Source of the DNA: Blastocatellia bacterium
Lineage (GTDB): Bacteria; Acidobacteriota; Blastocatellia; HR10; J050
Direction of reading: 5' to 3'
NCBI GenBank assembly: GCA_025054955.1
Contig: JANWZE010000114.1
Span: 1-59,309, forward strand
DNA: 59,309 nucleotides
The translations under genes were made by a program, and so were the position numbers. The notes under the pieces were generated by a model. The model searched no databases. It was not told the DNA's origin and saw only the letters and a program-made list of their open reading frames with translations. Below, one piece after another: positions 54,798-59,309 of this stretch; position 1 is the first letter of the stretch, and each line of letters opens with the position of its first letter.

Positions 54798-55895
54798 TCA
54801 CCTCCGGCTGGTGTAAGCTGACATTGTCCTGAGCGGCTGTCGTCCGGCGTTGTTCATGACATGGTGGTGGACCGCCGGGCCGCTCATCTGCACGCCTTCG
54901 ATTGGTGTGCCGCAGTCAGGACATTGATCATTGACAATCCAGTTGGCCAACACCGTCAATCCAGCTCGCTCAATGAGCAAGCGGCGGCAGTGTGGACACC
55001 ACGTGTTAGCGCCGACGCTCCCTCGAATGTTGCCACAGTAAACGTAGTGCAACCCGGCATGACGCCCGATGGTATAAGCTCGTTGTAACGTTTCGACCGG
55101 CGTCGGCGCATGGTCAGCCATTTTATAGGCTGGGACGAAAGCGGTCACATGCCACGGGATGGTGTATGAGAGCGAGGCCAGATATTCCGCGATGGCGTGT
55201 AGTTCTTCATCCGAATCATTATGTCCCGGAACAATCAACGTCGTGACCTCAACCCACATCCCAAGCGCCCGCATGAACTGAATACACCGAAGCACAGGCC
55301 GCAGCTTGCCGCCGGTGAGCCGTCGGTACGCGGCGTTATCGAACCCTTTCAAATCTACATTCGCCGCGATCACATACGGCATGAGTTGACGAATCGCTTC
55401 CGGCGAAAGATACCCGTTGGTCACCAGCAGATTCTTCAATCCTTGGGCATAAGCTTGCCGCGCCGTCTCGTAAACGAGTTCGAAGAAAACGGTCGGCTCA
55501 GTATAGGTGTAGGCAATGCTTCGGCAGCCGTGTCTGAGGGCAGTTTCCACAATCTCGGCGGGGCTCAGCAGCTCGCCAATGATGCGCGGATTGCGCCCCT
55601 TGGTCAGTTGCGACAAATAATGATTCTGACAATACCGGCACCGTAAATTACACCCGACGGTGGCAACGGATAAAGACATTGAGCCAGGTTGAACGTGAAA
55701 GAAGGGCTTCTTCTCAATCGGGTCTACTTCCAGCGCAGCCACATGATCGTACACAAGCGTATAGAGTGTCCCATCGCGGTTTTCGCGCACGCCGCACCGT
55801 CCACGCCGTCCCGGCTCAATGCGGCATTGATGAAGGCAAAGATCACACACGACCCCCTTGTCGCCAGTCCGATGATACAGCATCGCTTCTCTCAT
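54798..55895 (-). CDS. amrS: AmmeMemoRadiSam radical SAM enzyme
   Basis: 365 residues; GAGGAGGACC precedes ATG 55895. N-terminal zinc-like CDLCLHQC and GRCGVREN, then the radical SAM motif CNLRCRYC (C82, C86, C89). The family words IEKKPFFHVQPGSMSLSVAT, LKNLLVTNGYLSPEAI and VNVDLKGFDNAAYRRL-type segments match AmrS. The C-terminal region has further CxxC pairs (CPHCRRLL, CPDCGTPIEG), suggesting a metal-binding tail. The usual partners AmrA and AmrB are not in the window. Its reaction is unknown; the enzyme likely forms an organic radical on a protein or nucleotide. Downstream gene follows by 2 bp. Confidence 0.92.
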   Translation of the reverse strand: MREAMLYHRTGDKGVVCDLCLHQCRIEPGRRGRCGVRENRDGTLYTLVYDHVAALEVDPIEKKPFFHVQPGSMSLSVATVGCNLRCRYCQNHYLSQLTKGRNPRIIGELLSPAEIVETALRHGCRSIAYTYTEPTVFFELVYETARQAYAQGLKNLLVTNGYLSPEAIRQLMPYVIAANVDLKGFDNAAYRRLTGGKLRPVLRCIQFMRALGMWVEVTTLIVPGHNDSDEELHAIAEYLASLSYTIPWHVTAFVPAYKMADHAPTPVETLQRAYTIGRHAGLHYVYCGNIRGSVGANTWCPHCRRLLIERAGLTVLANWIVNDQCPDCGTPIEGVQMSGPAVHHHVMNNAGRQPLRTMSAYTSRR

Positions 55896-56897: not shown

Positions 56898-57707
56898 TCA
56901 GAATAGGCCGTGTTTATAATGCTCGATCCAGGCAAACATCCCGCGATAGCATTCCGGTATCTTCTGGTACTGCCTCTTGGAGATAATCAGGAACGGTTGT
57001 TTCTTATAGTTTCGATAATCCTTGAACCAGGGGCGATGATAAACCAAATACAAAAGCGGGCGTACGTGCTGAGAACGATTCTCAGTCCCTTGGTGCAGTA
57101 TTCTGTAATCCATCAAGAAACACGACCCGACCGGCACCTGCGGGTCTACAAACGACGCGTTGACTGGCTGCTCAGCTATCTGGAGATGTGTGCCCGGCCA
57201 CATCCTTGTTGTTCCATGCACATCATTAAATTCGATTAAAGGAATGGCCATCGTGAGAGCATAACAGGGCAACAACTCGTTCGGCATTGTAGGAAATAGG
57301 GCGGGCCCATCACGGTGAAGATGCTGCAACGGAGCCCCCGGTAACGAAACCACGGAGGCCAAACTTCCCAGCACACAATCTTCACCGAGTATGGCTCTGA
57401 TGATCGGCAAGACGAGTGGATGAGCATATAAAAGCGGCGCTGTGAATGGAGGACGAAAGGCGACTGTCACCATATAACGCTTCTGGCCCACCTCCAACGC
57501 ATCCAGATGGTGCGCTTCCTCAAAATAGCGTGCATACCGCTTCTGGTAAGCATTGCGCAGGCGAGTCATAAACTTCGTAGGAAAGACATTGCCCAGAAAG
57601 AGGCAACCATGAAGGCGAAACTGCTTGACAGCTTGCTGAAGCACATCCTGTCGGACACACGAACATGCATGCTCGTCAGGAGTGAATGAAATGGCTGGAA
57701 GCATCAT
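56898..57707 (-). CDS. PhyH-family Fe(II)/2-oxoglutarate dioxygenase
   Basis: 269 residues. Metal ligands H131 and D133 (LQHLHRDGP) and distal H205 (LMDYRILHQGTENRS), with R211 or R216 likely to bind 2-oxoglutarate. QFRLHGCLFLGNVFPTKF near 30 is the usual N-terminal segment of phytanoyl-CoA dioxygenase-like enzymes, and YLVYHRPWFKDYRNY occurs near 220. Such enzymes hydroxylate lipids, antibiotics or amino acids. It lies 219 bp downstream of a PRMT-like methyltransferase gene on the same strand, so a shared tailoring pathway is possible but unproven. Confidence 0.85.
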   Translation of the reverse strand: MMLPAISFTPDEHACSCVRQDVLQQAVKQFRLHGCLFLGNVFPTKFMTRLRNAYQKRYARYFEEAHHLDALEVGQKRYMVTVAFRPPFTAPLLYAHPLVLPIIRAILGEDCVLGSLASVVSLPGAPLQHLHRDGPALFPTMPNELLPCYALTMAIPLIEFNDVHGTTRMWPGTHLQIAEQPVNASFVDPQVPVGSCFLMDYRILHQGTENRSQHVRPLLYLVYHRPWFKDYRNYKKQPFLIISKRQYQKIPECYRGMFAWIEHYKHGLF

Positions 57708-57926
57708 GATCGGCCCTCATGAGCCATGCTCACCCCCAAGAAGTGACCATGAAGCTGGCCAACGTATTCAGCAGTCGAGGTGTCAAGCAGGGCTCACAGC
57801 AATTGTGGGTCGCTGAATCCGGATTTCGGAGCGAACTATTCCAGGTTCGTAAACGAGCGTCAACGCCGTCAGCGCCTAACTCTGGCCCGCAGCTTGCCGA
57901 GCAGTGCGCATCGGCAAGACGAGAGG

Positions 57927-59078
57927 CTACTGGCTGTATTTCTGTGAAAGCTCGCCAACGTACGCCAACGCCAATTTCCGCGAGGCGAACCGGCCAGGAA
58001 ATTGCTCCATGACCTGATCCGTGATCTTATCAAGCGACAGCTCACCATTCATCAGGTTCAGGATCATTCGGTCAATCTGGCCATCTTGGTTGAGACGGGG
58101 CGTATAACCCGCTTCGCATTTTCGCAAGCGCTCCAGCGAGAGTGGATGACCGTAGAAGGTTGACTGTTTGAACTCAGCTTTAATCTGCCCCGCGCAGGCC
58201 TGCTCGCGCACTTGTGTATTCCACCGCCAGATATAATCCTCACCAACAAGGTCGGCCTGTAGACTTACGGATATTCTATCGTTCACGGCGAGCGAGACCG
58301 GCTCTGGCCAAGGGAAGAAAGCGCGTCCGTAAATCACTTCTGGCTCACCCGGACGATTGGAAAATCCGATCCCGTCAATCAACTCAGCATCAAACCATAC
58401 AAGCAGACCATGAGCTAGGCCGGCGCGAGTAACCGACCACTGCGCTTCGCCCATGACATCGAAATTGACCAATCGGGTATAGTCCAATGTCGCCCAGCAC
58501 TGCGGTTCGACCAGCATGGACTGCGAGGGTACACGCCGGCCCTTCCCCCAGGTGTTGATGACAATGCTTCGCGCCGGTTGCATATCCAGGCCATAAGGGT
58601 CATCACCCCACGGGGCAGCATACTCCTTGTGCAGCTCAGCCGCTTCCACCACCGTCACCCACAATGTGTCACGCTGAGGAATCATGACGCCACCGGCAGC
58701 GAGGAACCGCGTTCGAGCATCTACAATCGCCGGCAGGTGAGATTGAAACATCGGCAGGATGCCTCGCAAATCGGAGATGATGACGTCGGCCCGTTCTGGG
58801 AGCTCCACTTCATTGGAGCGTTTCTGAATGAACTCAATCCGGTCGGCATAGCCATTGGCAACGGCCAGCTCGCGAGCCACCTGGATCGCGTCGTCAGGCT
58901 CAATTGCGTAGACCTTCCGCGCGCCCATCTGGCAAGCCAGCAACGCAAATATGCCCGTGCCTGTGCCGATGTCAACAACAACACTGCCCGGGTTGACGGC
59001 CCTGCGCAGCGCCTCGCAGTAGGGCTCCATCCGTCCCTTGTCGGCAATCATCGTCCCGTATGCAGCAATGCTGTACAT
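57927..59078 (-). CDS. SAM-dependent methyltransferase, protein-arginine-methyltransferase-like, with PqqD-like C-domain
   Basis: 383 residues. SAM motif VVDIGTGTGIFALLACQMGA at 34-53, then YAIEPDD and DVIISDLRGILPMF, which takes the place of the double-E loop of PRMT enzymes but lacks the two glutamates. A beta-barrel region follows (about 145-310). The last ~60 residues (DRMILNLMNGELSLDKITDQ and VMEQFPGRF) resemble a small winged-helix/PqqD-like domain, a fold used to hold peptide leaders. This suggests modification of a peptide or protein. The substrate is unknown, and the gene order with a dioxygenase is compatible with a maturation cluster. Confidence 0.8.
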   Translation of the reverse strand: MYSIAAYGTMIADKGRMEPYCEALRRAVNPGSVVVDIGTGTGIFALLACQMGARKVYAIEPDDAIQVARELAVANGYADRIEFIQKRSNEVELPERADVIISDLRGILPMFQSHLPAIVDARTRFLAAGGVMIPQRDTLWVTVVEAAELHKEYAAPWGDDPYGLDMQPARSIVINTWGKGRRVPSQSMLVEPQCWATLDYTRLVNFDVMGEAQWSVTRAGLAHGLLVWFDAELIDGIGFSNRPGEPEVIYGRAFFPWPEPVSLAVNDRISVSLQADLVGEDYIWRWNTQVREQACAGQIKAEFKQSTFYGHPLSLERLRKCEAGYTPRLNQDGQIDRMILNLMNGELSLDKITDQVMEQFPGRFASRKLALAYVGELSQKYSQ

Positions 59079-59167
59079 AGATGTCTCCCATCCAGCGTAT
59101 TCACATGCATAAATCGTCGAGGAGCATTCGGCGGCACGGCAGGCAGTAAGCTCACTCGTCGTGACCT

Positions 59168-59309
59168 TCAGGTGTCGCCGCGACTTCGCAGATCGTCAAG
59201 GATCACTTGACACAAGGTTGGGATGCGGTTGATGTCTCGATAGCCGGTGATTTGCCGCACTGGCACGTGATTCAATAACCGACTCAACACATCGAACTGT
59301 CGCGCCCGT
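59168..59309 (-). CDS. Partial gene at the right edge (C-terminus)
   Basis: The minus strand reads RARQFDVLSRLLNHVPVRQI, then TGYRDINRIPTLCQVILDDL and stops at 59168. The start is outside the window. 'VP...TGYRDI..IP....ILDDL' recalls the ends of HPr-kinase-like proteins that accompany PqqD-type genes, but this is only a resemblance. It would lie immediately upstream of the methyltransferase gene on the same strand. Confidence 0.5.
   Translation of the reverse strand, partial: RARQFDVLSRLLNHVPVRQITGYRDINRIPTLCQVILDDLRSRGDT

Follow-up and report, generated by a model that had tools for sequence, protein, structure and literature searches.

A PRMT-fold methyltransferase in a probable lasso peptide cluster split between two contigs of an acidobacterial genome

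Lasso peptide clusters that combine an HprK-like kinase with a nucleotidyltransferase have been described, namely those of pseudomycoidin (psm) and bsf (PMC9266682, PMC10368454). Methyltransferases also occur in lasso pathways, and those named in the reviews are StspM/LasF and enzymes of the PIMT type, none of them PRMT-like (PMC9266682, PMC8498205, PMC13352647). StspM and LasF are O-methyltransferases of the C-terminal carboxyl group (lassomycin type) that act on the linear precursor, and StspM has been modelled on mitomycin-7-O-methyltransferase (PMC9266682). LihM and TceM, of PIMT type, form aspartimide and act on the threaded lasso peptide (PMC13352647). With regard to oxygenases, the Fe/2OG enzyme CanE hydroxylates the C-terminal Asp of the canucin lasso precursor (PMC9266682). 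A soil-metagenome study mentions further, unnamed methyltransferases in lasso clusters (PMC12670498). In the literature that we searched, which covered few subscription journals, neither a PRMT-like nor a PhyH lasso enzyme was found and, within those limits, a PRMT-fold methyltransferase has not been described for lasso peptides. Beside the StspM and PIMT types, such a fold would represent a third kind of lasso methyltransferase in this literature, and it recurs by a kinase in two phyla.

The stretch of DNA analysed here (the window) is an entire contig, C114, of 59,309 bases, belonging to an assembly of 152 contigs. Its right edge very likely carries the downstream genes of a lasso peptide cluster, the upstream part of which lies on a second contig, C103. 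In common with psm and bsf, this cluster has split B1 and B2 genes, a cyclase, an HprK-like kinase with the H...GKS...DD motif, a gene of the NTP_transf type and a YxxPxL leader, but it adds a GT4 glycosyltransferase, a PRMT-like methyltransferase and a PhyH-family protein, and its precursor does not end in Ser. As described, the bsf cluster lacks a methyltransferase, and none is named for psm in the reviews (PMC9266682, PMC10368454). We give a probability of roughly 0.78 to the explanation as a whole, that is, a cluster ordered N - GT4 - B1 (PqqD) - B2 - C - A - K - MT - PhyH together with the pathway proposed below.

Lasso genes across the contig junction

Contig C103 was found by searching the contigs of the same genome with the right-edge region of the window. 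The 3′ end of C103 overlaps C114, with an exact match over the terminal 126 bases of C114, and an overlap of this kind appears to be the type that short-read assemblers leave at a branch. On C103 (locus L009), genes for a TPR protein, an NTP_transf_5 protein, a GT4 glycosyltransferase, a PqqD protein, a lasso B2 protein, a lasso-type cyclase, the precursor, a complete kinase and a partial methyltransferase follow one another in the same direction. Gene identities, motifs, order and recurrence, as well as the absence of Arg from the precursor, can be read directly from the DNA. The first-pass annotation, made from the window alone, had proposed a peptide-modifying cluster with its precursor outside the window, to be sought as a short gene to the right; a 48-aa precursor gene was indeed found on C103, along with B1, B2 and the cyclase. 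The locus does not combine ordinary upstream metabolism with a lack of PqqD similarity, the outcome that the annotation had held to speak against its proposal. By contrast, the suggestion of an undescribed maturation route did not survive: an NF033537 protein, a PqqD protein, an Asn-synthetase-like cyclase and a precursor of the form YxxPxL...LTK/G (the slash marks cleavage) are those of lasso biosynthesis and, consequently, the class of pathway is already known.

The B2 protein, a transglutaminase-like leader peptidase in which the Cys and His of the triad are visible, scores 88.9 bits against NF033537 (cut-off 33). The B1 protein matches PF05402 (E 1.4e-17) and reaches 56 bits with the lasso PqqD family NF033536, below the cut-off of 80. 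The cyclase contains GATase_7 (PF13537) and Asn_synthase (PF00733) domains and an SGGLDS motif; its N-terminus, MSGI, lacks the glutaminase Cys2, and its score against NF033535, 367 bits, lies below the strict cut-off of 525. The precursor, MMQAQEKLTKKSYGSPKLLTYGTFGQLTKGTPAGANKDGGMMPNNKTD, has a YxxPxL leader, Thr at position -2 and D/E within core positions 7-9 (YGSPKLLTYGTFGQLTK/GTPAGANKD). Its predicted core, GTPAGANKDGGMMPNNKTD, would form a ring between G1 and D9, with a calculated neutral monoisotopic mass of 1856.815 Da for the lasso peptide. Homologues of the precursor are syntenic in relatives, lying between the cyclase and the kinase. In two loci (L044:8241-8777 and L084:11670-12082), two tandem precursor genes with closely similar cores occupy this interval.

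The complete HprK-like kinase of C103 (L009:18437-19501, plus strand, 354 aa) has an intact H...GK[ST]...DD motif in the form LHGSAV...GPAEAGKS...TDD. The window holds only the last 46 codons and the stop of such a gene (about 59168-59309, minus strand), 98% identical over the overlap to the C-terminus of the C103 kinase, so that the HPr-kinase-like tail reported earlier at this edge was correctly recognised. The kinase-methyltransferase junction is present as two alleles in this one genome assembly (C103:65486-65600 and window 59050-59185). Past the 126-base overlap, the C103 allele has 73 more bases between kinase and methyltransferase, and it breaks off 95 codons into its methyltransferase allele; over this length it differs from C114 by 15 synonymous and 3 amino-acid changes, the protein being 97% identical to that of the window. 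These extra bases and codon differences suggest either strain variants in the assembly or a recent duplication. A tandem duplication of the kinase and methyltransferase genes was considered and set aside, as only one complete kinase gene is present in the genome and strain variation would be the simpler reading. That the junction spans two contigs of a metagenome-type assembly counts against our reading of C103 and C114 as one lasso cluster.

In the host phylum, 34 of 297 genomes encode a relative of the methyltransferase (E <= 1e-10), and in the host class 18 of 162 do so (E <= 1e-40). The phylum of Phormidium sp. LEGE 05292 yielded relatives in 4 of 292 genomes. Named relatives are those of Argonema antarcticum, Phormidium sp. 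LEGE 05292, an uncultured cyanobacterium and an Acidobacteria MAG, the precursor of the latter being the same as that of class member G418, a match that would put the genome analysed here among the Acidobacteriota. In both Acidobacteriota and Cyanobacteria the gene stands beside lasso genes, mostly adjoining the kinase. For instance, the order in Argonema and Phormidium is B1-B2-C-A-K-MT-ABC transporter-N, and several acidobacterial genomes have K-MT-N. Lasso B2 matches occur in 65 of the 162 class genomes, and the methyltransferase is absent from all 20 B2 loci of other class members that served as a contrast set for the precursor; it therefore marks a subset of lasso clusters. That it turns up sporadically in two phyla suggests that the gene has moved horizontally.

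A PRMT fold with an altered loop and an added tail

The methyltransferase (57927-59078, minus strand, 383 aa) adjoins the kinase and has PrmA/methyltransferase and PRMT_C matches in Pfam. Compared as a profile with the PDB, it retrieves PRMT2, PRMT6, PRMT8 and PRMT1 at E values of 1e-34 to 1e-38 (PRMT2, 2.5e-38), and the best 50 Foldseek matches of its model are PRMTs without exception. Both profile and model indicate the Rossmann and beta-barrel fold of PRMTs over residues 4-275, a span that the protein has in common with the class I enzymes PRMT1, PRMT2 and PRMT6. It differs from these in a changed double-Glu loop, in a THW His that is not conserved and in an added C-terminal tail. The AlphaFold2 model of the full-length protein has a modest pLDDT of 62.8 and, consequently, side-chain geometry was not taken from it. 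StspM is set apart by its description, as the window enzyme has a PRMT fold and no tail domain is reported for StspM in the literature consulted. LihM and TceM are likewise SAM enzymes associated with lasso peptides, but they belong to the PIMT family.

The degenerate double-Glu loop (58731-58787, minus strand; residues 98-116, DVIISDLRGILPMFQSHLP) was defined from an alignment of 34 relatives and from alignment to PRMT2. Where PRMTs have SE(W)MG...E, this protein has SDLRG...Q, so that the first Glu is replaced by Asp103 and the second by Gln, in agreement with the original observation that the PRMT glutamates are missing. The Met position of SEWMG is occupied by Arg105, as it is by Arg in most of the close clade, and an Arg at this place would fit an anionic acceptor. 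Judged by the fold itself and the PrmA match, the enzyme might be a routine methyltransferase of protein arginine or of ribosomes, placed here by chance. We consider this very improbable, as both catalytic Glu residues are altered here and kept in the free-standing relatives L052 and L058-L060, which also lack the tail, and as linkage to lasso genes is repeated across two phyla. The protein is likely an uncharacterised tailoring enzyme of the lasso pathway and, in line with the annotation, it is probably a peptide tailoring enzyme and not an arginine methyltransferase.

The C-terminal tail domain (residues 310-383; 57930-58151, minus strand) is predicted to consist of three helices, which look like the helical half of PqqD and lasso B1 proteins. 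The first-pass annotation had described it as a PqqD-like end, and the evidence on this point is divided. Single-sequence scans of the tail (about residues 320-383) returned only TIGR03859 PqqD, at E 0.023. In the profile search against PqqD, a smaller first set of 16 tails gave an hhalign signal not above shuffles, while a profile of 27 tails against 27 PqqD sequences scored 21.9, above every one of 200 column shuffles (maximum 16.6), at a probability of only 28%. Modelled alone by AlphaFold2, the tail shows three helices (pLDDT 77.5) and is without the leader-binding beta-hairpin, in a model built on a thin alignment of five sequences, which may miss strands. Foldseek placed the lasso B1 protein TbiB1 (5v1u) first among 350,542 chains (E 1.4) and another, 6jx3, eighth. 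VIA-align, which gave a Z of 5.3 with 6jx3, tied with unrelated HTH folds, was discarded as a means of identifying the tail, as it did not separate lasso B1 proteins from generic HTH folds. Additionally, lasso C or B2 genes lie within about 10 kb of 23 of the 27 tail-bearing methyltransferases, that of the window included, versus 2 of 7 tail-less relatives (Fisher p 0.007, indicative only because the loci are related).

Taken with these data, the tail may be PqqD-like, with helices that match those of lasso B1 proteins and no beta-hairpin. Whether it binds the leader we judge to be evenly poised. The other half of our expectation goes to a generic three-helix bundle that serves dimerisation or partner binding and not the leader: the hairpin is missing from the model, the VIA Z for lasso B1 equals that for unrelated HTH folds, the cluster already has a separate PqqD gene, and the methyltransferases of L087 and L088 are kept without the tail in spite of standing in lasso clusters. 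Such a bundle is harder to reconcile with lasso B1 proteins as top Foldseek matches, with an hhalign profile score above every shuffle and with a tail whose presence tracks lasso linkage. The tail-less enzymes of L087 and L088, as well as tail-bearing enzymes that stand apart from lasso genes (L089-L091), also weigh against our reading of the window's right edge as part of a lasso cluster with a dedicated methyltransferase.

In two of these three loci, the tail-bearing PRMT-like enzyme lies beside a protein of about 175 aa with a PqqD domain (L089:8830-10619, minus strand; L090:9559-11369, plus strand). In L089 this protein continues into a conserved segment, ...GLTRREIIKKVGL..., the L090 version of which is GLSRREIIKKVGL; perhaps enzyme and PqqD-domain protein make up another RiPP-like pair. 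No such neighbour was seen among the listed ORFs of L091.

Candidate acceptors of the methyl group

Acceptors were compared over 15 predicted cores of clusters with this methyltransferase, the window's included, the core boundaries being predictions. Arg is missing from the window's precursor, so that arginine cannot be the target in this peptide, and it is also missing from 13 of the 15 cores, the window's own among them. Lys is lacking in three, no basic residue is common to all the cores, and Asp and Thr are the only residues present in all 15. The window's core is alone in ending in Asp, and its only Asp residues are D9, in the ring, and D19. In three loci (L040:8798-8947, L041:5930-6094 and L082:9086-9247), the Thr(-2) rule leaves core positions 7-9 without an acidic residue and puts the next one at position 10, which would mean either a ring of 10 residues or a cut shifted downstream by one residue.

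Because the pocket would now have Asp103 and Arg105 in place of the Glu pair and the cores of relatives share no basic residue, a carboxylate is the most likely acceptor, and our tentative candidate, favoured over other sites but held at somewhat below even odds, is the C-terminal carboxylate of the linear precursor. By analogy with StspM, to which the window enzyme is likened as a lasso-pathway methyltransferase thought to act on the linear precursor, this would most simply account for all the cores, and a phosphate or Thr might also serve. A K[TS] motif near the C-terminus, found in 12 of the 15 cores, might instead supply the acceptor, with its Lys or its phosphorylated Thr methylated in series with the kinase, the gene of which mostly adjoins that of the methyltransferase; as a variant, the phosphate ester of another Ser or Thr could be used. 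We think this unlikely. Cores without the motif belong to clusters with a divergent kinase (L043/L085, L046 and L047), in which the methyltransferase is kept at 45-57% identity and the kinase is the divergent part; thus, KT tracks the kinase subtype, the motif probably marks the kinase site, and its Lys ranks lower as a methylation site. Esterification of a ring or internal Asp leading to aspartimide, as by the PIMT-type LihM and TceM on the threaded peptide, would agree with the presence of Asp in all 15 cores and with the existence of aspartimide lasso peptides (PMC13352647). This seems quite improbable, since the window's core offers only D9, which is required for the ring, and D19, the fold is that of a PRMT and not of a PIMT, and additional internal Asp residues are not conserved among relatives.

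Returning to the lasso cluster as a whole, we infer the modification, its site and timing, and the role of the tail as follows. B1 would bind the leader and the kinase would phosphorylate the core, probably at the Thr of KT near the C-terminus. The methyltransferase, having lost the guanidinium-binding Glu residues, would methylate the linear precursor, possibly helped by its own PqqD-like tail. B2 would then cut off the leader after ...LTK, the cyclase would join Gly1 to Asp9, and PhyH may hydroxylate the core at the C-terminal Asp19, as in canucin, or at a Pro. A broader and rather doubtful proposal is that a PRMT fold has been rebuilt for RiPP tailoring, with the guanidinium-binding Glu replaced for an anionic group (the C-terminal carboxylate or a kinase-made phosphate) and with a reduced leader-binding domain of its own, so that Acidobacteriota and Cyanobacteria would make lasso peptides that bear both methyl and phosphate groups. 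If true, this would be a new candidate tailoring reaction, in which the fold of a protein-arginine enzyme has been redirected to an Arg-free peptide. With the precursor identified, the question of what the methyltransferase does is open to direct testing.

The downstream dioxygenase

The dioxygenase announced downstream is present: a PhyH-family Fe(II)/2-oxoglutarate enzyme of 269 aa (56898-57707, minus strand; PF05721, E 6e-16), with an intact HxD...H facial triad when aligned to kanamycin B dioxygenase, its closest solved relative. It lies 219 bp downstream of the methyltransferase gene on the same strand. Its membership of the lasso cluster is only possible, since it is intact but stands beside no other such methyltransferase, and this lack of a close relative at other methyltransferase clusters counts against the cluster order proposed here. 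We lean somewhat towards an unrelated, separately acquired neighbour: no relative exceeds about 32% identity in 297 genomes of the phylum, a search at the methyltransferase clusters returned no homologue, GC content is 0.506 compared with 0.569 for the methyltransferase, and the spacer measures 219 bp. On the other side, it is the next gene on the same strand with its triad intact, and a different Fe/2OG oxygenase (PF13640) adjoins the cyclase in lasso locus L057.

Were PhyH a member of the cluster, hydroxylation of Asp19 or of a Pro would be its tentative function. By description it is likened to CanE, since the window's core also ends in Asp; as this core is alone in doing so and CanE hydroxylates the C-terminal Asp of canucin (PMC9266682), Asp19 is a testable guess and no more. 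Other lasso loci of Acidobacteriota do include dioxygenases: that of L057 (14536-15162, minus strand, 2OG-Fe(II) oxygenase) belongs to a cluster with a tail-less methyltransferase. Further along the window, 54798-55895 (minus strand) encodes a radical SAM enzyme of the AmmeMemoRadiSam system (TIGR04337, 338 bits against a cut-off of 220).
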